Part shown: in pieces, positions 452 to 10,104 of the stretch
How the letters are laid out: every line of letters starts with the position of its first letter
How positions within the stretch are numbered: the stretch's first letter is position 1
Made by a program: the position numbers and the translations under genes
The notes under the pieces: model-generated
Told to the model about the DNA's origin: nothing
Database searches by the model: none
The model's input: the letters and a program-made list of their open reading frames with translations, nothing else
Assembly: GCA_003158415.1 (NCBI GenBank)
Contig: PMJA01000368.1
Span: forward strand, 1-13,055
Direction: 5' to 3'
Source of the DNA: Methylobacter sp.
GTDB lineage: Bacteria; Pseudomonadota; Gammaproteobacteria; Methylococcales; Methylomonadaceae
Length of the DNA: 13,055 nucleotides

Positions 452-1177
452 TTATTTCTTCGTCCAGCGCGGCAGCCACATTTGCGCAAACGAGGTTGCA
501 AACATCACCATAGCCGCCAAGCTATAGCCCATGCCGCCGATCATCGTAATCCAGGCGCAGCCGGGCCAGAACTTGGTCAGCCACCAGGACGCGACATCCA
601 GCACCAGAAAAGCAAACGGCGTCGATATTAAGACCAGTTTCCAGAATTGATTAAACTCGGCCAGACCGAAAATCGCCCCAACAAACATGAAAATGAAGCC
701 GATGCCGAATAAATGGATATGCGATACCCGCGTCAATGTGGAAATGCTGGCGCCATGATCGACTTCCGCCAGACTTGTTACCACATCAAGTTTAGTCACT
801 TCAGGCAAGCCGGATTCGGCGTCATGACAAGTGCCGCAGTTTTTTTCCAGCAAGGGCCGCACCTTGTCCCACTCGGCAACCGGGGCGCCGTCACGCACCC
901 ATTTAATCAGGGTGAAATTGACCTCGGCCGGGGCTTTGTCTTTCATTTTACCGGTGAGGGCCGCTTCCAGCTTGGAGCCTGAGCGGTTGCCGTAATAACT
1001 GTAGACGATGTCATTCATCGACAAACCCGGCTTACCGTCGGCCATGCCGTGCGTGAGCATGATCTGTGCGCCCGCCATACACAAGCCCAAGCCGATCACC
1101 AATAAAAACCCGGTGAACAAAAACCGGTACGTCAAAGGCAACGTGCCTAAGGTTAAATCACACTTCGGTTCAATCAT
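452..1177 (-). CDS. Four-helix inner-membrane protein with one periplasmic c-type haem site
   Basis: This is a 241-residue protein of a family I do not recognise. Predicted membrane helices lie at about 17-41, 152-172, 179-199 and 208-231. Between helices 1 and 2 is a hydrophilic domain of about 110 residues with one CGTCH haem c motif (114-118). Haem c attachment requires the periplasm, which places both termini in the cytoplasm; the basic tail RWTKK agrees with this. His43 at the end of helix 1 and His153/His155 at the start of helix 2 lie on the same predicted periplasmic face and could hold a further cofactor, which is inference. The gene starts 10 bases after the mtrB stop, and its AGGA ribosome site overlaps that TAG stop, which suggests translational coupling. 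Its position suggests a quinol-side or periplasmic electron partner of the MtrAB conduit. It is not a NapC/NirT tetrahaem (CymA) protein. Confidence 0.85.
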   Translation of the reverse strand: MIEPKCDLTLGTLPLTYRFLFTGFLLVIGLGLCMAGAQIMLTHGMADGKPGLSMNDIVYSYYGNRSGSKLEAALTGKMKDKAPAEVNFTLIKWVRDGAPVAEWDKVRPLLEKNCGTCHDAESGLPEVTKLDVVTSLAEVDHGASISTLTRVSHIHLFGIGFIFMFVGAIFGLAEFNQFWKLVLISTPFAFLVLDVASWWLTKFWPGCAWITMIGGMGYSLAAMVMFATSFAQMWLPRWTKK

Positions 1178-1187
1178 TTTTTATTTC

Positions 1188-3548
1188 CTAAAAGCTATGG
1201 TTATAAGAGAGGGCGACGACATTGACGGCATAACTTTGCGGCTGCAGGCCGGTCGGTATAAGAGCGGTTGGCGTAGTACCAAACTGCTGACCGTTGTAAT
1301 AATAATCGTTGCTGTTTAATTTTTGATACATATAGGTCAAAGACAGCTTGCCATTTTTATGCACTTTATAATTGCCGGTTAATTTCAGGCTGATTATTTC
1401 GTTGGAAATAGGCGATAAAGAACCGCAAGTCAGCGAAGCGCCGCTTCCACAGGTGGGACTATAAGGTGTCTGCGTTAAATAGCCGGTGGTATCCAGCGCA
1501 TAAGACAAATCGCCGATCAGTTCCAGCTTATTATTGAATAGACCGTCGCGCCGTGTCAGTAGGCCGACGGTGTTGCTGTTGTCCTGTAGCTGATTAGTCC
1601 AGATATTCATCGGCGTCGTTATTTGCGAAGGCGTGTAGGCCGCCGTGCCATTGCCGGTGGCGCCGCTGCTCAAATTCCTCAAGCCGTTCTGCCAGTTCCA
1701 ATAAGCGGAAACGCTGCTGTTTTCTGCGTAGTTGTAATTCGCGTCGACATTGACACCGGTCGAGCGCCCGTTTTGTACACCCAACGTCGCATCGTAATTA
1801 TCGTAGGCATAACGGCCATTCACGCCCACATCCAGTTTTTGGGTCGCCTGCCAAGTGAAGCCGGCTTTCGTCATATTCTCAACGCGACTGGCATAAGGGT
1901 AAGCGACGAAACCTAAAAAATTGCCTGCGTTCAAGGCGGAACTGGAAATAGCTGTCGTTGAAGCATAGTTTCCGGCATTAGCAAGGAAAGCAGCCGTGTC
2001 TGCGCGACGGTCAGAAAAAGTGTAGCCGGCGTTAAAATTAACATCGTCAATCATTTTTAACCGGTAGGTCAAAGCGATTTTATCCTCCTCGCTGGACGGA
2101 CTGGAAACACACTGGGCACCGCCGACTACCGTATCGCACCAACGCTTGACGCTCTCGTGCTCATAAGCCAAGTTCACATTTTGCGCCTTGGTCAGTCGGT
2201 AAGCCGCCGCCGCCTCGTATTGCGTCTTGCTGTTGCTGTAGGGCGTATTAATTCCGGTGTAATAACCATTAGTGCCAACACCACTAGAACCAATGTTCAC
2301 ATAATTGTAGGTATTCGAACTGGTGAGGTTGACGCGCTCGTTGTATTTAAGCCCGGCGCTCAAGGTCAAATCCTTGATACTCTGATTGGTCAGCTTTAAA
2401 TCCCCGTGCTTGGTTTCCACCACGCCATTCAGCGATGAAGCAGGCAATCCGCCCGCCTGCATCATATTGGAATATAAGGTTCCACCGGGTTGCAGGTTGA
2501 CTTGTTGTATGTTGGTCGGAGCGTAAGCGGAATTCTGCGAGTTATAACCGTAAGAAAATCCGCCTGCCAATTTGGTGGCCGAGGTAAAATTATAACCACC
2601 GGTCAGATTTGCCTGATGCAGGGTATTGCTGGGCGCAGTGCTCATGGTGTTGTTTGTGTAGCAATTGGTTCCCGTACAAGGGCTTGCTGCGCTAGTCACC
2701 GGACTTTGCCAACTCAGGCTATTATAATCGTCATGGAACATCGAGCCATAATACCCGCCGGTAAGATGCCCTTTATCGCCTCTCCAGTTCAAAGCAGCAT
2801 TGACATTATCCGTCTGGTAACTGGTCGGGTTCATGATGATATTATTGCCTTCGGCTTTCCCGGTGGTCTTGCCTGGGATAGTTATCCCGCCTTGCGACCC
2901 GGTACCGATGAGCTTGCCGCCGGACTGATCCAGATGATTATAATCAATCTGTGCGCTTAACGACGGGCTGAACGTATACGAGGTGCTTACAGAACCGTTC
3001 TTGCGGTTGACGTACTCCTGTTCGGTATGGAAATCACCTAACTGGGTCGAATTTAGCCCAGTTTTTGTATTAATAGTTGAGCCAAAATTTGTGGGCAAAG
3101 TTAAATTATTCCCACCGCCGCCTTGTAAAGGCGTTTGATAGCTATTGGTGATATTGTGCTGCAATTCGTCGTAGCCCAGATTTATTTTCCAGTTACCCTG
3201 ATCGCTGACCGAGCCGTCGAGCGCACGGGAAGTGGTGCCCAAGTTAGACCCACCCAGTTTCCAGCGCAGGGCACTGTCTTTGCTGCTATCGTAGCCGTCT
3301 CCGCCGCGCACATCAAAGCCGCCCAGACCATAAAAGCCGCTGTCATTTAAACCGTTATACTGACCGAATCGGGCCGAGTTTTGGCTGGAATACAAAGTGC
3401 CGGCTTCTATCGAGTTGGTCGGCTGCTTTAAGGCCGCTGCGTCATCATCGGCATAAGCGTCCAGAGGCAGTGTGGCGACCGCCATCAATGCGCAACGCAC
3501 CGCCAGGCCCAAGAAACTGACATGCTTTTCTTCATTACGAGTTTTCAT
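1188..3548 (-). CDS. mtrB: MtrB/PioB-family outer-membrane beta-barrel of a decahaem electron conduit
   Basis: This 786-residue protein has a signal peptide (about 1-33, ending AYA before DDD), many alternating aromatic/polar strands rich in Asn, Ser, Gly and Tyr, and a C-terminal Phe in the SYNHSF end typical of barrel proteins recognised by the BAM machinery. MtrB/PioB proteins form a pore that sheaths the decahaem MtrA/PioA and carries electrons across the outer membrane. The length is nearer PioB (about 810) than Shewanella MtrB (about 700). The N-terminal CxxC of Shewanella MtrB is absent. Instead, three cysteine pairs (291/296, 471/480, 700/708) sit in loop-like segments and could form disulfides. 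I chose the ATG at 3548 because GGAG lies 7 bases upstream and the signal peptide starts there; an upstream in-frame ATG at 3608 would overlap the decahaem gene. It lies 19 bases after the mtrA stop. Confidence 0.93.
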   Translation of the reverse strand: MKTRNEEKHVSFLGLAVRCALMAVATLPLDAYADDDAAALKQPTNSIEAGTLYSSQNSARFGQYNGLNDSGFYGLGGFDVRGGDGYDSSKDSALRWKLGGSNLGTTSRALDGSVSDQGNWKINLGYDELQHNITNSYQTPLQGGGGNNLTLPTNFGSTINTKTGLNSTQLGDFHTEQEYVNRKNGSVSTSYTFSPSLSAQIDYNHLDQSGGKLIGTGSQGGITIPGKTTGKAEGNNIIMNPTSYQTDNVNAALNWRGDKGHLTGGYYGSMFHDDYNSLSWQSPVTSAASPCTGTNCYTNNTMSTAPSNTLHQANLTGGYNFTSATKLAGGFSYGYNSQNSAYAPTNIQQVNLQPGGTLYSNMMQAGGLPASSLNGVVETKHGDLKLTNQSIKDLTLSAGLKYNERVNLTSSNTYNYVNIGSSGVGTNGYYTGINTPYSNSKTQYEAAAAYRLTKAQNVNLAYEHESVKRWCDTVVGGAQCVSSPSSEEDKIALTYRLKMIDDVNFNAGYTFSDRRADTAAFLANAGNYASTTAISSSALNAGNFLGFVAYPYASRVENMTKAGFTWQATQKLDVGVNGRYAYDNYDATLGVQNGRSTGVNVDANYNYAENSSVSAYWNWQNGLRNLSSGATGNGTAAYTPSQITTPMNIWTNQLQDNSNTVGLLTRRDGLFNNKLELIGDLSYALDTTGYLTQTPYSPTCGSGASLTCGSLSPISNEIISLKLTGNYKVHKNGKLSLTYMYQKLNSNDYYYNGQQFGTTPTALIPTGLQPQSYAVNVVALSYNHSF

Positions 3549-3567
3549 AATTAGCTCCGTAGTTAGT

Positions 3568-4524
3568 TTAGCGTTGCAACAGCGCACCGGCAGGATCATT
3601 CGACCCATGCACCATGCTGTGACAATTCATACAGGCCCGACCGGTATAACTCGAACTGGGATTGCCGGTTATCCCGCCTTGAGCGCCTGCGGCATTTCCG
3701 GCAACCGGATTTTTACTGGCATGCGGGCCATCGTGGCACTCATCACACATGAACGGCGGACGCGACTTCAGCAACGGCGTGATGTTGGAGCCGTGCGGGG
3801 TATGGCAAATGGTACAGTCTTCGGTTGCCGGCTGATGTTCCCACAGGAATGGCCCGCGTTTTTCGGCATGGCAGGTGTAGCAGGTTTCGGTGACGGTATT
3901 TTTAACCAGCAATTTCGGCCCAGCCGAACCGTGCGGGTTATGGCAATCGGAACAGGCGATTTTGCCTTCAGGAATCGGGTGATGAGAAAACTTGTTCGCC
4001 TGCGCCTTTTGATCCTGGTGACAGGTATAGCAGACCTGGGCTTGAGTCGGTTTCTCACGCACTTTGTCATGCGGCGTATGGGCGACATGACAGGAGGTAC
4101 AAGCCAGATTGGCGGCCTGATGCGCTCCGCCCTGCCAATGCGTGCGTTTGGGATCTTTTTCGTGGCAAGTCAGACAAGCCGTGTTTTGATCGTTGACTGC
4201 GTTAGGTGAGTAAGCGCCTTTTTTGCTGCCGAAGATGACATCAGGCGCATTACTCTTGCTACTTAAATGCTTTAGACTTTCGCCATGACAAGACTGGCAC
4301 GATGGCGTGCGTGTATCGGCCTTGTTGCCGTGCGCGGTTTGATAAATAGTAAGAATCGGCGTCTTATCGTTTTCATCGTGACAACGGGTACATTCCGAGT
4401 CCTTGTCTATCATTTGTGCGGGCGACTTGGCAGGCGCTTTGCCTGCGGGTGTCGCCGCGTTTTCGGCATGAGCGGACGCAACAAAGAGTCCGCACAGCAT
4501 GATAATTTTAATTAATTCATTCAT
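3568..4524 (-). CDS. mtrA: MtrA/MtoA/DmsE-family periplasmic decahaem cytochrome c
   Basis: This 318-residue protein has a signal peptide (1-20, cleavage after AHA) and exactly ten CxxCH haem c motifs, starting at residues 45, 76, 117, 142, 165, 191, 215, 237, 260 and 298. The spacing and the CMNCHSMVHGS segment near the C-terminus match the MtrA/DmsE family, whose Shewanella member has about 333 residues. There is no long N-terminal extension like that of PioA. The mature protein should sit in the periplasm, inserted into the MtrB pore, and pass electrons along the haem chain between periplasm and cell surface. The ribosome site is weak (GGAA about 8 bases before the ATG). The gene is followed closely by mtrB, the usual partner. 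The direction, reduction of outside acceptors or oxidation of Fe(II) as in MtoA, cannot be decided from the sequence. Assignment to the family is firm; the name mtrA rather than mtoA is a convention. Confidence 0.95.
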   Translation of the reverse strand: MNELIKIIMLCGLFVASAHAENAATPAGKAPAKSPAQMIDKDSECTRCHDENDKTPILTIYQTAHGNKADTRTPSCQSCHGESLKHLSSKSNAPDVIFGSKKGAYSPNAVNDQNTACLTCHEKDPKRTHWQGGAHQAANLACTSCHVAHTPHDKVREKPTQAQVCYTCHQDQKAQANKFSHHPIPEGKIACSDCHNPHGSAGPKLLVKNTVTETCYTCHAEKRGPFLWEHQPATEDCTICHTPHGSNITPLLKSRPPFMCDECHDGPHASKNPVAGNAAGAQGGITGNPSSSYTGRACMNCHSMVHGSNDPAGALLQR

Positions 4525-4837
4525 TAGGATAGTTCCGGCAAGTTATTTTTGAGCGGCAACAGCACTCAAGCTAATGATTCACATAACAGTCAACGATCCG
4601 CGAGGCTAAAAAACCCACATAGTGTCTGATGTAGTTTTACAGGCAACCGCCTAAAGCGGGTATCGCCCAATATTGACAAGCTTTCCAGTCATCCTGGAAG
4701 CGGACGTTGCGCACCTTAAAGAGGCAACCTTTATAAAAATAAAAACACCGGAAGTCATTCTGTCATTAATCTGATAGCTGTCTGGCGTTTTTCAACTGAT
4801 TATTTTTGTTTGTGTCTTTTGTAATAAACTGCGTTTT
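4525..4837 (-). promoter_or_regulatory. 313-base leader/intergenic region upstream of mtrA
   Basis: I see no gene here. It separates the monohaem cytochrome c gene from mtrA on the same strand, so it should hold the mtrA promoter or a processing and termination point. Visible structure includes a 6-bp dyad TTCCAG/CTGGAA (4683-4688 with 4694-4699), a short CCGC/GCGG dyad near 4648-4660, and the terminator-like inverted repeat listed separately. A TTGTCA hexamer (minus strand, 4679-4674) resembles a -35 box, but no good -10 box lies at the right distance, so I do not call a promoter. Confidence 0.4.
4741..4792 (-). terminator. Weak terminator-like inverted repeat after the cytochrome c gene
   Basis: The 12-base arms 4741-4752 and 4781-4792 pair with one mismatch and one wobble across a 28-base loop. 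On the minus strand the second arm runs into a T-rich stretch (TTTTTATTTTTAT). It lies about 45 bases downstream of the cytochrome c stop at 4838, so it could separate that transcript from mtrAB. The long loop and A/T-heavy stem make it a poor intrinsic terminator. Confidence 0.3.
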
Positions 4838-5185
4838 TTAAAGGGAAAGTATCCAATCCACCAAGTTTTTGACTTCTTTAGGATCGTCCGATTTGACGAT
4901 CATGTGGGGTTCTTCATGTCCGTCGGGGAATTTGGCTTTTTCGCCTGAAGATAGATGTTTAAGCAGCTTTTCTTCGCCTTTAGGATCGGCCTTGAATTTA
5001 GCGGCGGACTTAGTAAATGACGGGCCGTCTTTATCCTTATCGACACCGTGGCATCTAAAACAATTGTTTTGCTTGGCGAAGTCTTTGGCCGCATCGGCGT
5101 CGACTTCCGCCTGGGCGGAAAAACAACAAACAGCAAGCGTCATTGCAGAAAAAGTCTTCAGACTCAATGAATATAAATGTTTCAT
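4838..5185 (-). CDS. Secreted monohaem class I cytochrome c (possible MtoD-like shuttle)
   Basis: This 115-residue protein has a signal peptide (1-26, ending AQA before EVD) and a single CFRCH haem motif (42-46). A GPSF segment follows at 54-57, and Met95 in PHMIV is a plausible axial ligand, as in small His/Met class I cytochromes c. It would be a soluble periplasmic electron carrier. It lies upstream of the decahaem cytochrome gene on the same strand. In Fe(II)-oxidising Sideroxydans, the monohaem cytochrome MtoD is encoded with mtoA and mtoB, so a similar link to the decahaem conduit is plausible but inferred. I chose the ATG at 5185 because GGGGA lies just upstream and it begins a normal signal peptide; a TTG 18 bases further upstream is less likely. 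It could also serve other respiratory enzymes. Confidence 0.88.
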   Translation of the reverse strand: MKHLYSLSLKTFSAMTLAVCCFSAQAEVDADAAKDFAKQNNCFRCHGVDKDKDGPSFTKSAAKFKADPKGEEKLLKHLSSGEKAKFPDGHEEPHMIVKSDDPKEVKNLVDWILSL

Positions 5186-5495: not shown

Positions 5496-6023
5496 TTATT
5501 CGTATAAGCATTTCATACGTTCTAATTCTTTTAGAAAGAAACTGTCGCTAATATTGAGTTCTTCATAACAGATTATCATTACGTTTGTGTCTTGAAACAT
5601 TTTATTTACCGATTCGTTAAGACTTTCATGATGACTGTGTTCTTTCTTGCGAAGATAAATCACTTTTTTTATACCGACTTGAATAATTGCTTGCGCACAG
5701 GTATTGCATGGAAATTGGGTAACATAAATCGTCGAACCTGTCATGCTGTGTGCCATACAGTTATAGATAGCATTCTTCTCAGCGTGAACTACATAGGTAT
5801 GTTTAGATCGCACTAAATCGTTATCATCACTATCTTCCCAATATTGGGGATCGTTATCGTTACAGCCTCTAGGTAACCCATTATAACCAATGCCTATTAT
5901 TCTATTACTAGCATCAACGATACATGCACCATTTTGTGTTTTACTATCTTTCGATCGAAATGAAGATAAAAATGCTATCGACATAAAGTAAGTATGCCAA
6001 GACATATAATTTTCTTTCTTCAT
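5496..6023 (-). CDS. dCMP deaminase (deoxycytidylate deaminase, zinc-dependent)
   Basis: This 175-residue protein would deaminate dCMP to dUMP, feeding dTMP synthesis. Visible are the YFMSIAFLSSFRSKD opening, GACIVD (32-37), the GYNGLPRGC loop (46-54) that in this family lies in the nucleotide-binding region, the zinc/catalytic HAE (His80, Glu82), and PCNTC with zinc ligands Cys106 and Cys109. It resembles the eukaryotic and phage-type enzymes. No thymidylate gene is nearby. The coding sequence is visibly AT-richer than its neighbours: two 60-base stretches counted by hand, 5521-5580 and 5641-5700, are about 27% and 35% G+C, against about 63% for 9841-9900 in rluC. It is flanked by REP-like hairpins, which suggests acquisition. 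No clear ribosome site precedes the first ATG; Met7 (6005) is an alternative start. Confidence 0.9.
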   Translation of the reverse strand: MKKENYMSWHTYFMSIAFLSSFRSKDSKTQNGACIVDASNRIIGIGYNGLPRGCNDNDPQYWEDSDDNDLVRSKHTYVVHAEKNAIYNCMAHSMTGSTIYVTQFPCNTCAQAIIQVGIKKVIYLRKKEHSHHESLNESVNKMFQDTNVMIICYEELNISDSFFLKELERMKCLYE

Positions 6024-6119
6024 TTGTTTTGTGATTTATTTATTAATCTGTCAGTATGAAACTTAGAGGAACAGTCTAAAGAACAAAAAAGTCCATCTTT
6101 AAACGAACCACTCCGAAGC

Positions 6120-6144
6120 GTGACGGGATTTGCAATCCCGTCAC
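6120..6144. repeat. Perfect 11-bp intergenic dyad
   Basis: GTGACGGGATT (6120-6130) and AATCCCGTCAC (6134-6144) are exact reverse complements around a three-base loop. There is no T-run directly after it on either strand, so it is not a standard intrinsic terminator. It lies between the dCMP deaminase start and the rne stop. It looks like a dispersed repeat unit or an RNA-stabilising hairpin. Confidence 0.7.
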
Positions 6145-6226
6145 TCATGTTTTGTAGATAGTCGTAATTTTCAAACGTTCCTGTCGAGGCTTGCAAACCC
6201 CCACCGGCTCCGCTCCAAGCGAAGAA

Positions 6227-6248
6227 GGCGCGCGGCGGCGCGCCCTAC
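6227..6248 (-). repeat. GC-rich REP-like hairpin just after the rne stop
   Basis: Read on the minus strand, GTAG (6248-6245) precedes a hairpin with a 6-bp all-GC stem (6244-6239 with 6232-6227). It begins 4 bases beyond the rne stop codon, so it would form a stable structure at the 3' end of rne mRNA. REP elements are often found at such places and can protect mRNA ends. Confidence 0.55.
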
Positions 6249-6252
6249 CAGG

Positions 6253-8646
6253 CTATTCTTCGCTGGCCTTGGGCGCAGATTCAGTAGCCGCTTTTTGCGG
6301 CTCCGGCGCCTTTACAACAGGCGCTTGAGGCTCAGAACGCTCGGTTCTTTCCACCCGTTCGGCAAAATCACTGTCATAAGACCGGGATGGCCCAGGACGA
6401 TCTTCGCTACGGCTGTCTGATGCCGCCAAGTCGGTGTCGCCGTTGCTGGTATCGCCCTCGCCTTCCGCTTTTTTGTAGTTGGGGTTGCGCGGTCTTCTAC
6501 GGTTTGGACCTCTGCGACTGGCGCTTTTTCTGGCGGCAGGCGGGCTTTGCTCGTCCGTCGTTGCAACAACATCCTGCGTCACTAATGCCGCTTCGGTTAC
6601 CGGCGCAATAGCAGCCGTCGGTGCTTCGGGTTTAAACGCTACGTTAGTTTCATCGACTCCTTCATTGACCGGCGCAAGATTACGCCTAACGTTGCGGCCC
6701 GGCCCCCTGATATTGCGACCAGACCGGGGTTCTTTGTTTTGTTCCGGTTTGGCGTCTTGCACCGGTGCGGCGCGCTCAGGACGCGGCTCCTGTTTTTGAC
6801 GCGGTTCCTGATTTTGACGCGGCTCCTGGCTTCTTGGCCCTTGATTTCTACCGCCGCGCCGGTTATTCCGGCCTCTGCCCGGCTGACTTTCGTCAGTCGC
6901 TCTTACTCTTTCAACCCGCGCAGGCGATACTTTGACTTCCGGCTCAGGTTCAGACTCAGCTGCAAATCCGGAGCCTATGAGCTTATGCCAAAAGCGCTTA
7001 ATCAAGCTGGCAGCTTCATTTTTTGTTTGTACAGGCGCGGGGGAATCGTGCATAAATTCCTTGATGGCCGCGTTTTCAACTTTCGGTTTTATTTGTTGCG
7101 CAAATTCAGGAACGGTAATGTCTTCCGCTTTTATCTGCAAGTAACTGGGTTTTTCGTCGCCGGTTTCTTTTTCCTTGATGCGCTCAATGTCATAAGCCGG
7201 TGTTTCCAGATGCTTGCTAGGCAAAATAATGATACCGACCTTCAATCGGGCTTCGATTTGTTCGATGGCATGGCGCTTTTCATTCAACAGGAAAGTCGCA
7301 CACTCGATAGGCAAATGGGCGATCACTTTTTCCGTGCCTTTCTTCATGGCTTCTTCTTCGAGAATGCGCAACACCGAAAGCGCTACCGACTCCACGTTAC
7401 GTATCGTGCCCTGGCCTTTACAGCGCGGGCAAGGCAATTGCGTGGAATCGCCCAAAGACGGACGCATCCGTTGTCTAGACATTTCCAGCAGGCCGAAACG
7501 CGAAATACGACCGGTTTGAATGCGGGCTCTATCGATTTTAAGCGCATCACGCAGATGATTTTCCACCATGCGTTGATTTTTATTGGACAGCATGTCAATG
7601 AAGTCGATGACAAACAAGCCGCCCAAATCGCGCAATCTGAGTTGGCGGGCGATTTCATCGGCCGCTTCCAGGTTGGTGTTCAGCGCAGTTTCTTCAATGT
7701 CACTGCCTTTGGTGGCGCGGGCGGAGTTGATGTCAACTGAGGTTAACGCTTCGGTATGGTCGATAACCAATGATCCGCCTGAAGGCAGCGAAACTTCACG
7801 ACAGTAGGCGACTTCAATTTGGGATTCAATCTGGTAACGGCTGAATAAAGGCACCGCATCCTGATACAGTTTCGCTTTAGGCAAAAAATGCGGCATAACC
7901 TGTTTAAGGAAGTCTTGCACCAACTTGAATGAGTCTTCATTATCGATCAAAATCTCGTCGATATTACCGCGCAAGTGATCGCGCAAAGCCCGGATGATAA
8001 CGTTGCTTTCCTGAAACACCAAAAACGGCGCTTTCTGCTCATTGGACGTGCGATCGATGGCTTCCCACAGTTGCAGCAGATAATTCAAATCCCATTGCAG
8101 TTCTTCGGCATTTTTGCCGCAGCCCGCCGTCCTGACGATCAAGCCCATGCTTTCGGGAATTTCCAGCGCTGCCATGACTTCACGCAAATCGCTGCGGGTT
8201 TCGCCTTCTATGCGCCGGGATATGCCGCCAGCCTTGGGATTGTTCGGCATTAATACCAGATAAGTACCCGCCAGACTGATATAAGTCGTTAGCGCTGCGC
8301 CTTTATTGCCGCGCTCTTCCTTTTCAATTTGAACCAGGATTTCCTGGCCTTCCTTGATCATGTCTTTTACAGCGGGACGACGACCATCCGGTTCAGCGCC
8401 GTCCTGACTTTGCCTGTAGAGCGGGGAAATTTCCTTGAAAGGCAAAAAGCCGTGTTTTTCCGCGCCATAATTGATAAATGCCGCTTCCAAACTGGGTTCT
8501 ACGCGAGTGATGATACCTTTGTAGATATTGGATTTTTTTTGTTCTTTTGAAGGGACTTCTATGTCAAAATCATACAGTTTTTGACCGTCTACCAAAGCGA
8601 CTCGCAGTTCTTCAGCCTGCGTAGCGTTGATAAGCATTCTTTTCAT
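6253..8646 (-). CDS. rne: Ribonuclease E
   Basis: This 797-residue endoribonuclease initiates mRNA decay and matures rRNA and tRNA precursors. It aligns with E. coli RNase E from the first residues ([10 protein letters not shown]). It shows an S1-like region at about 35-125, the 5'-sensor/RNase H-like part, and the DNase I-like catalytic part with Asp305 (VDINSARA) and Asp348 (VIDFIDM), which match E. coli Asp303 and Asp346. The zinc-link CPRC (Cys406, Cys409) joins the dimer pairs. The C-terminal half is low-complexity: an amphipathic segment [15 protein letters not shown] (547-561) probably binds the membrane, as segment A does in E. coli, and an Arg-rich stretch (about 579-660, with repeated EPRQ units near 608-620) probably binds RNA. 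The scaffold is shorter than in E. coli (1061 residues in total). AAGGA lies 6 bases before the ATG. It is divergent from rluC, as in E. coli. Confidence 0.98.
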
Positions 8647-9147
8647 TTTGTATCCTTATAGTTTCCTGCTCCATTGTCAGATTTTACTGAATTGAACCGG
8701 TTTTGGTTAGCGCATCATTGTGTGTGTCAATACAAGCACGAAGCATTATGTCTAACCAGTAACATAATCAGCTTAGTCTTTACGGTCTTATGTTCCGTCA
8801 TCTGCGCCATCTTTGTCGTTATTTTAGACTTCAACAAGAAGCCATAGCTTGGGCGCGGACAGATTAAGTTAATATTTCTCAGTCTTGGGTCGTAAAGTCT
8901 GTTTTAAACAGGTGTTAAAAATCGTGCGTCTAGGGTCGTACGATGAACCCGAAAATCTTATAATGAGAAATTAATCACGTAAGTGTTGTTTTAATCTTCA
9001 TTAAGTTGCTCTAAGCCGGTTTCATCACTGAAAAATCCGCAGAGCTTAAAGTTGTTTTTCTTAAAAACTTGCCTAATATAACAACCTTATCGCCTTACAT
9101 CAATTTTAAAGCATCAATCATCCCCGGATACTGGTATTATTTGCACT
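8647..9147. promoter_or_regulatory. 501-base divergent rne/rluC intergenic region with a structured rne leader
   Basis: I see no gene here. It must hold both divergent promoters. Nearest to rne, TGGTTAG (8704-8710) and CTAACCA (8752-8758) can form a 7-bp stem in the rne leader RNA around a smaller internal stem. A near-repeat GTCT(T/A)GGGTCGTA occurs at 8882-8894 and 8928-8940, with the palindrome CTGTTTTAAACAG at 8899-8911 between the copies. On the plus strand, a TATAAT at 8959-8964 lacks a good -35 box. E. coli rne is autoregulated through hairpins in a leader of about 360 bases; a similar role here is inferred from length and pairing only. Confidence 0.5.
9132..9140 (+). promoter_or_regulatory. 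Candidate extended -10 promoter of rluC
   Basis: TGGTATTAT matches the extended -10 form TGnTATAAT with one difference. Initiation about 7 bases downstream would fall at or next to the A of the rluC ATG (9148). The ATG has no Shine-Dalgarno sequence before it, so a leaderless mRNA would explain both facts. No -35 box is visible, which an extended -10 may not need. Confidence 0.4.
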
Positions 9148-10104
9148 ATGAGCATAGAAGAAAGCGCGTTACCTAAAGTTGTATATGTCGAAATTACTGA
9201 AGACAATAGCGACCAACGATTGGACAATTTTTTAATTACCCGTTTAAAAGGCGTACCTAAAAGCCATATTTACCGCATCGTCAGAAAAGGCGAAGTCAGG
9301 GTTAATAAAGGCCGCGTGGATGTCAAGTACCGCCTGGTTGCCGGCGATATAGTCCGGGTTCCTCCGGTCAGGGTGGCCGAACGCAGCGAAGAGTCATACA
9401 TTCCACAGGGTTTGCAAGCCGCGTTGCAACAGGGTATTTTGTTTGAAGACGAAGGTTTTCTGATCATCAACAAACCGGCCGGTTTTGCCGTACACGGCGG
9501 TAGCGGCGTCAGTTCCGGCATAATCGAAGGATTGCGCCTGTTAAGACCCGACGCACATTTTTTAGAACTAGTACACAGGCTGGACAAAGACACATCAGGT
9601 TGCCTGCTGATCGCCAAAAAACGTAGTGCTTTGCGCCTGTTGCAAGAACTTTTCCGCAACAGCCAAATTCAGAAGACTTATCAGGCTCTGCTCTCCGGGC
9701 AATGGGCCAGAAAAAAGCTGGTAGTCACCGCGCCCTTGTTAAAAAATGCCGGCAAAGGCGGCGAACGCATCGTGGTCATCAGTCCGTCCGGCAAAGCAGC
9801 AGAAACACTGTTTCGACGCTTGCAGTTATTTCCTGACGCCACCCTGGTTGAAGCCTCGCCGAAAACCGGGCGCACCCATCAAATACGCGTGCATGCCGCC
9901 AGCCTGGGCCATCCTATCGTCGGCGATGAACGTTATGGCCTGGATGAAGTCAATAGGGCCTTTAAAAGCAAAGGCTATAAACGCATGTTTCTCCATGCGC
10001 AAACCTTACGGTTTCAGCATCCTGTTACCGGGGCGCCCATGATCATTTCAGCCCCCTTACCGGCGCAACTGGAAACTTTATTAAAACATGAAGCACAGGT
10101 TTGA
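9148..10104 (+). CDS. rluC: 23S rRNA pseudouridine synthase RluC
   Basis: This 318-residue RluA-family enzyme in E. coli makes pseudouridines 955, 2504 and 2580 in 23S rRNA. An S4 RNA-binding domain spans about 23-75 (QRLDNFL, KGEVRVNKGR). The catalytic domain has HRLDKDTSG with Asp146 as catalytic aspartate, the KTYQA segment (176-180) and the GRTHQIRVHAAS segment (241-252). The N-terminal half is close to E. coli RluC (KGVPKSxIYRIxRKGEVRVNK, RxPPVRVAER), which supports RluC over RluD or RluA. There is no Shine-Dalgarno sequence before the ATG. Its 3' end overlaps the next gene by 17 bases, so the two are probably translationally coupled. Confidence 0.95.
   Translation: MSIEESALPKVVYVEITEDNSDQRLDNFLITRLKGVPKSHIYRIVRKGEVRVNKGRVDVKYRLVAGDIVRVPPVRVAERSEESYIPQGLQAALQQGILFEDEGFLIINKPAGFAVHGGSGVSSGIIEGLRLLRPDAHFLELVHRLDKDTSGCLLIAKKRSALRLLQELFRNSQIQKTYQALLSGQWARKKLVVTAPLLKNAGKGGERIVVISPSGKAAETLFRRLQLFPDATLVEASPKTGRTHQIRVHAASLGHPIVGDERYGLDEVNRAFKSKGYKRMFLHAQTLRFQHPVTGAPMIISAPLPAQLETLLKHEAQV

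Follow-up and report, generated by a model that had tools for sequence, protein, structure and literature searches.

The contig PMJA01000368.1 of Methylobacter sp. (assembly GCA_003158415.1), whose 13,055 nucleotides are termed here the window, harbors a gene cluster with a predicted role in the passage of electrons across the cell envelope. The cluster is read as an Mto-type conduit (MtoD, MtrA and MtrB) in which the place of the usual quinol dehydrogenase of the inner membrane, the tetrahaem CymA, is taken by an unrelated monohaem cytochrome with four helices, designated as 4TMc, and which is perhaps served by a modified quinone; a probability of about 0.6 is assigned to this reading. As read, the gene set should wire the inner membrane of a methane-eating bacterium to the cell exterior. 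One small, uncharacterised membrane cytochrome, 4TMc, is a candidate for the link that joins the inner membrane with outer-membrane conduits, in electroactive methanotrophs as well as in iron oxidisers of the Cyc2 type.

The four-gene set itself is already in print. A report of June 2026 (PMC13322032) describes the same porin-cytochrome complex (PCC)/extracellular electron transfer (EET) cluster as Methylobacter_1_02045-02048 of an anode-enriched Methylobacter, and covers the four-helix monohaem protein, the conserved gene order across 11 genomes of Methylococcales and the missing MtrC/OmcA. The two clusters share the four proteins, their order and the taxonomic order of the host, and both are found without MtrC/OmcA. 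Methylobacter genomes with MtoA, MtrA/MtrB and Cyc2 have also been tabulated (PMC12810054). The main text of PMC13322032 makes no mention of MtoD, Sideroxydans, a methyltransferase, rhodoquinone, ubiE, Cyc2 or Zetaproteobacteria, and among the top-ranked matches for broad topics in the open-licence literature no paper joins rhodoquinone with electron transfer or decahaem proteins, cyc2 with methanotrophs, or "elongation factor-1 alpha" with mtrA, nor does any deal with PF27139. Within the literature searched, and as far as the searches go, the new elements are the mto identity of the cluster with its CymA replaced, the occurrence of the 4TMc family in common at Cyc2 loci and in Zetaproteobacteria, and a slot for a quinone-enzyme gene.

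The host is a Methylococcales metagenome-assembled genome (labelled G000) with a completeness of 80% and 425 contigs, and the window is one whole contig of it (C196). Among named proteins, its nearest relatives come from Methylococcales/Methylobacter. The four genes are adjacent and all lie on the minus strand, exactly as the preliminary description of this DNA had placed them. The first (4838 to 5185) encodes a periplasmic monohaem cytochrome c of 115 residues with one CxxCH motif and a PF00034 score of 39.1 bits. It is followed by the gene of a decahaem c-type cytochrome, MtrA/MtoA (3568 to 4524; 318 residues), which carries exactly ten CxxCH motifs and scores 279.6 bits against TIGR03508 (cut-off 192.2), and by that of the outer-membrane barrel MtrB/MtoB/PioB (1188 to 3548; 786 residues), which reaches 433 bits against TIGR03509 (cut-off 240) and 419 bits against PF11854, so that the earlier assignment of both proteins holds. 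These family scores of MtrA and MtrB are far beyond chance, and the two proteins match chains A (E-value 6e-68) and B (E-value 8.5e-17), respectively, of PDB entry 6r2q, which we take to be the Shewanella MtrCAB complex. The fourth gene (452 to 1177) encodes 4TMc, an inner-membrane protein of 241 residues with four helices in the model and one CxxCH motif, standing at the position of cymA.

The best PDB match of the monohaem cytochrome is 4XXL (E-value 1.6e-37, residues 6-116), the bis-His MtoD of Sideroxydans lithotrophicus with a potential of +155 mV (PMC4412085), and by this similarity the gene is an MtoD homologue. Besides the haem histidine, H78, H91 and H95 (P0004 numbering) are invariant in all 13 aligned relatives, which makes them candidate distal haem ligands, any one of which may bind the iron. 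Because the monohaem gene matches MtoD, the order of the window becomes mtoD-mtoA-mtoB-X, where X takes the place of cymA in the order mtoD-mtoA-mtoB-cymA of Sideroxydans lithotrophicus ES-1 (Slit_2498-2495; PMC12016527, PMC4412085). The homologues of MtoD, the decahaem cytochrome and the barrel thus stand in the same order in both, while the cymA/imoA gene of ES-1, encoding a tetrahaem NapC/NirT protein, is replaced here by 4TMc, after which a quinone-enzyme gene follows. With the Shewanella MtrCAB system the cluster has the MtrA and MtrB homologues in common, but it has an MtoD-like shuttle in place of any CymA match or any MtrC/OmcA above cut-off. The preliminary description had called the partners of MtrAB non-canonical, which stands for the inner membrane, where 4TMc rather than CymA is found, and falls for the monohaem cytochrome, a canonical MtoD homologue. 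Its premise that known MtrAB systems use CymA was too narrow, given that NetBCD has also been described as a partner (PMC8805035).

The absence of CymA was examined with a threshold of E ≤ 1e-5 for NapC/NirT in genomes that had been picked by MtrB. Of 151 Methylococcales genomes, 22 gave an MtrB match, 21 being above cut-off, and in half of these (11 of 22: G000, G084, G148, G150, G088, G118, G130, G033, G087, G093 and G099) 4TMc adjoins MtrB, which bears out the expectation that the four-helix gene recurs beside mtrAB in relatives. Not one of these 11 genomes, ten of them at least 97% complete, contains a NapC/NirT match. The genome of the window, as assembled at 80% completeness, likewise has no NapC/NirT match and no MtrC/OmcA above cut-off, the single match, on contig C278, reaching 25.5 bits against a cut-off of 209; the CymA and MtrC set elsewhere in the genome that would have spoken against the earlier proposal was not found.

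A uniform partnership of 4TMc with every Methylococcales MtrAB locus was rejected, as the same count gives only 11 of 22 genomes. Ten of the 11 MtrAB loci without 4TMc were read, G128 (L193) being left out. Three of them (G114, G047 and G010) have a NapC/NirT gene within 1.5 kb of MtrAB, and in two (G040 and G096) a cytochrome b561, not 4TMc, stands next to the MtoD-like gene. Neither NapC nor b561 appears in the open reading frame lists of the MtrAB loci of G026, G074, G129, G136 and G138; the dedicated NapC search, which among these five covered G026 only, gave no match. In G084, b561 and 4TMc are both present. The MtrA of the window is 45% identical to that of a NapC-type locus and 52% identical to that of a b561-type locus. 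It looks as if inner-membrane modules had been exchanged on one common conduit, and the exchanged modules may be functionally equivalent.

Searched against local copies of Pfam and NCBIfam, the 4TMc protein gave no match, and hence no NapC/NirT four-haem domain was found in it, while its relatives carry PF27139 in the precomputed annotation of the protein database. Its single CxxCH motif lies at residue 114. An AlphaFold2 model built from 62 sequences (predicted local distance difference test score, pLDDT, 86.7; predicted template modelling score, pTM, 0.70) shows four long helices (15-41, 145-170, 177-203 and 205-234), the first two of which flank the haem domain, in agreement with the four-helix monohaem membrane protein first described. 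Across 171 family members, D47, D56, M78, W93, C114, C117, H118, H153, H155, D194 and W198 are kept without exception, and H43 is kept in 164. M78 may serve as the distal ligand of the haem. In the model, H153 and H155 lie near the N-terminal end of the second long helix, right after the haem domain, where another haem, of the b type, or a site for quinone is possible. A PDB search with the 4TMc sequence (P0001) gave no match, and a known structural relative could not be assigned by other means: the family profile yielded one match with E < 0.1, to a cytochrome c555 construct that aligns at positions 81-134, and the matches of Foldseek and VIA resemble generic helix bundles, none of them convincing. 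The name "elongation factor-1 alpha" that NCBI gives to some relatives was taken as an annotation error.

The preliminary description closed the set at position 452. A UbiE/COQ5-type gene, however, continues on the same strand 200 bp beyond 4TMc, with its ATG at 251 and its 3' part cut off by the contig end (1 to 251, minus strand). The proposal of a self-contained variant route between quinone and surface is therefore kept for an MtrAB conduit with an inner-membrane partner other than CymA, and has to be amended by this fifth gene. The fragment scores 26.3 bits against PF01209 and is 84-92% identical to the complete copies downstream of 4TMc in loci L033, L035, L036 and L037. The slot after 4TMc is readable in 11 loci (the window, L033-L041 and L179), five of which (the window and the four just named) hold the UbiE/COQ5-like methyltransferase gene 39 to 496 bp after 4TMc, four (L038-L041) that of an RquA-related protein, and two (L034 and L179) neither enzyme. 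The contig of L032 breaks off, and a matching gene is found close to the beginning of a different contig from the same genome (C56:325-1095), so that adjacency is probable there. Among the 151 genomes, UbiE-like proteins (E ≤ 1e-40) occur in six and RquA-related ones (E ≤ 1e-20) in five, jointly in ten genomes, all of which belong to the 11 with MtrAB-4TMc. Strong matches to the fifth gene are confined to MtrAB-4TMc loci (221 loci, not counting L222-L239), with two weak ones of 44 and 36 bits elsewhere.

Both kinds of slot protein stay apart from their namesakes. The genome of the window has a separate canonical UbiE of 310.5 bits, while the UbiE-like fifth-gene products score 129-144 bits against TIGR01934, below its cut-off of 158, in the three complete relatives scanned, the copy of the window being a fragment. 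The RquA-related proteins fall below the NF038261 cut-off of 175, with 118-124 bits in L038-L041, and the two that were scanned score 45-48 bits against TIGR01934. RquA itself has disrupted canonical motifs, and potentials of -63 mV for rhodoquinone and +110 mV for ubiquinone are reported (PMC9814641). The S-adenosylmethionine (SAM) motif I is also altered in five RquA-related proteins, reading SCAFGD compared with ACVYGD or ACVYGN in RquA; four of these belong to L038-L041, and the fifth is encoded away from the cluster in the genome of the window (G000:C377; L238:269-1069, minus strand; 145 bits). In a tree for which 20 of 30 RquA loci passed the filter, the RquA-related proteins branch beside RquA and not inside it, in separate clades. 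The candidate assignment of the fifth gene as a true RquA is unsupported, the copy of the window being UbiE-like and the RquA-related ones elsewhere being below cut-off.

The 4TMc family extends far beyond the cluster. A member is present in 123 of the 151 Methylococcales genomes, against 22 with MtrB, and the idea that 4TMc is confined to MtrAB genomes was rejected. Of 398 genomes drawn across the phylum, 65 gave a 4TMc match, namely the genome of the window, three of the same class (one weak) and 61 of families f47 and f67, which are probably Zetaproteobacteria, judging from named loci in the same clades; the f47 genomes G286, G334 and G377 do not figure in the matches from this draw. The named zetaproteobacterial loci number 26 (L102-L127) and include that of Mariprofundus ferrooxydans PV-1. 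The 171 distinct copies longer than 480 bp, obtained from 208 matches, form two deep branches in a FastTree phylogeny rooted at the midpoint. The Mtr-linked copies, that of the window included, fall into a single clade of 14 rows with a support of 100; 13 of these rows lie within 2 kb of MtrB, and the 14th is on a contig that ends just past 4TMc.

Copies linked to Cyc2, the fused cytochrome-porin, are found in both deep branches, part of these loci having been sampled because of Cyc2. Cyc2 is likewise an outer-membrane conduit, but of an unrelated type that is lacking in the window and is paired with another branch of 4TMc. Loci L053-L062 and L197-L201 were sampled for or near Cyc2-like matches, so the count was restricted to L128-L181. 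A zetaproteobacterial query had given 560 relatives, and these 54 loci are what is left of the best 80 once the zetaproteobacterial ones are set aside; they therefore stand mostly for the deep branch in the vicinity of the query. There, a Cyc2-like haem-porin gene stands directly upstream of 4TMc, on the same strand and less than 400 bp away, in 17 of 52 readable loci and not in the other 35, two loci being too short. No Cyc2-like match lies within 5 kb of 4TMc in the 26 named zetaproteobacterial loci, although the profile, built from methanotroph sequences, may miss others. In these 26 loci a monohaem gene comes next in 19 and a trihaem gene is found downstream in 21. For L104, L118 and L125, the three loci that were read completely, the next gene is presumably hemN, as judged from its sequence. 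In the other zetaproteobacterial branch, eight copies have HybE on one side and a NiFe-hydrogenase-like gene on the other, as seen by Pfam on L086 and by BLAST to L086 for the rest. None of these partners is seen for 79 of the 122 non-zetaproteobacterial tree rows, some of which have short flanks.

Quinone binding, the electron path and the modified quinone are what we infer from this material. Quinol would give up its electrons close to the periplasmic side of 4TMc, in the neighbourhood of the invariant residues H153, H155 and D194, and the electron would pass through the covalent haem c of 4TMc to the MtoD-like shuttle, and from there to MtrA inside MtrB, where it would leave (or enter) at the cell surface; the flow may also run in reverse. 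The product of the adjacent UbiE-like or RquA-related gene would adapt the quinone, possibly to a rhodoquinone-like compound of lower potential, to the 4TMc module. Because a low-potential quinol would help to drive electrons out, we lean towards outward flow, at slightly better than even, over inward flow, which keeps a smaller but appreciable share, the little that is left going to traffic in both ways. A special quinone in methanotrophs, if true, would explain how methane electrons might be discharged to low-potential acceptors, and 4TMc, MtrAB and the quinone enzyme together would offer a genomic marker for methane oxidation that is linked to minerals or electrodes.

Several points qualify the outward lean and the link of the fifth gene to the cluster. 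The MtoD homology, the Cyc2 pairing of 4TMc paralogues and the presence of the family among oxidisers of Fe(II) speak for inward flow, and the co-occurrence of the fifth gene with the cluster does not amount to ten independent cases, because the cluster-bearing genomes are related to one another. With two distinct enzyme families in one slot, no fewer than two events are to be counted.

An inward, Mto-like path, in which Fe(II) or reduced organic matter would feed electrons through MtrAB, the MtoD-like shuttle and 4TMc to ubiquinone, is considered rather unlikely. The match to MtoD and the mto gene order agree with it, as do the presence of 4TMc in Zetaproteobacteria, a group with known Fe(II) oxidisers, and the Cyc2-like pairing in Methylococcales; moreover, Methylobacter sp. 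S3L5C is reported to express cyc2 more strongly when given dissolved organic matter (PMC12211021). A low-potential quinone, on the other hand, would be of no help to an inward route, no Cyc2-like match adjoins 4TMc in the named zetaproteobacterial loci, and the enrichment of the Methylobacter already in print took place on an anode at +600 mV, though the authors of that work state that the direction is not established (PMC13322032). That potential does not decide the matter, because ordinary ubiquinol would also suffice there.

It is similarly doubtful that the fifth gene accompanies the cluster by coincidence and acts elsewhere, for instance in the respiration of fumarate or on a different substrate. 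Beyond the cluster, UbiE-like and RquA-related proteins are widespread, the homologues of the two families amounting to 785 and 2665 matches, and the gene is absent in G084 and L179. Against chance stand the occupation of the same slot by two distinct quinone-enzyme families in two branches, gaps to 4TMc of only 39-40 bp in two loci, and, at the thresholds used, the absence of either family from those of the 151 genomes that lack MtrAB-4TMc. In addition, in the stretches compared, the genes beyond the fifth gene differ between L033, L036 and the genus of L035 and L037, the last two sharing two genes. The least probable of the alternatives is that 4TMc makes no contact with quinone and is an anchored cytochrome c that relays electrons from the bc1 complex or methanol-dehydrogenase cytochromes to MtoD, for which its lone haem motif, its many stand-alone copies and the soluble trihaem and monohaem cytochromes beside it in Zetaproteobacteria would speak, but four helices and the invariant H153, H155 and D194 exceed what an anchor needs, its position equals that of CymA, quinone-enzyme genes adjoin the Mtr-linked copies, and eight zetaproteobacterial copies sit in [NiFe]-hydrogenase clusters.

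Beyond the Mto-type conduit with 4TMc in place of CymA, a bolder proposition would see in 4TMc a new class of quinone:cytochrome c oxidoreductase, a general partner of MtrAB and Cyc2 conduits in methanotrophs and iron-oxidising Zetaproteobacteria, whose MtrAB version in methanotrophs works on its own modified low-potential quinone made by the neighbouring gene; in this full extent it is held to be improbable.

Several further occurrences were recorded. The genome of the window has three Cyc2-like haem-porin matches, on contigs C41 (L182), C102 (L183) and C13 (L184), of which the C41 copy has 4TMc downstream. The motif AXPXFAR[Q/K][T/Y] is given for Cyc2 before its CxxCH (PMC8406198); the C41 protein departs from it with AMPSFSRQT, S standing for A, while the motif is exact in, for example, L150, L158, L167 and L175. 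On L179 (CAIPPE010000255.1, 6659-14627) a Cyc2-4TMc pair converges on 4TMc-4TMc-MtrB-MtrA-MtoD, placing two conduit types on one island. The [NiFe]-hydrogenase assembly clusters with 4TMc, which contain HupH, HybE and NiFe-like genes, are those of L079, L080, L082, L084 and L086-L089, and two further copies, in L048 (G040; 6107-9321) and L022 (G075), have as neighbours the genes of a dihaem cytochrome c and of an oxidase from the COX1 family. RquA-family matches are found in 30 genomes of the putatively zetaproteobacterial f47, 14 of them above cut-off; in the three such genomes compared (G155, G163 and G167) the match lies at least 17 kb from 4TMc or on another contig, and rhodoquinone in iron oxidisers is worth checking.

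A scan for promoters and terminators stayed at chance level, with one promoter-like site against 7.1 expected and eight terminator-like sites against 7.2 expected. A dCMP/cytidine-deaminase-like gene is located at 5496 to 6023 on the minus strand, within a stretch of low GC content (about 40%) that lies between the cluster and rne.
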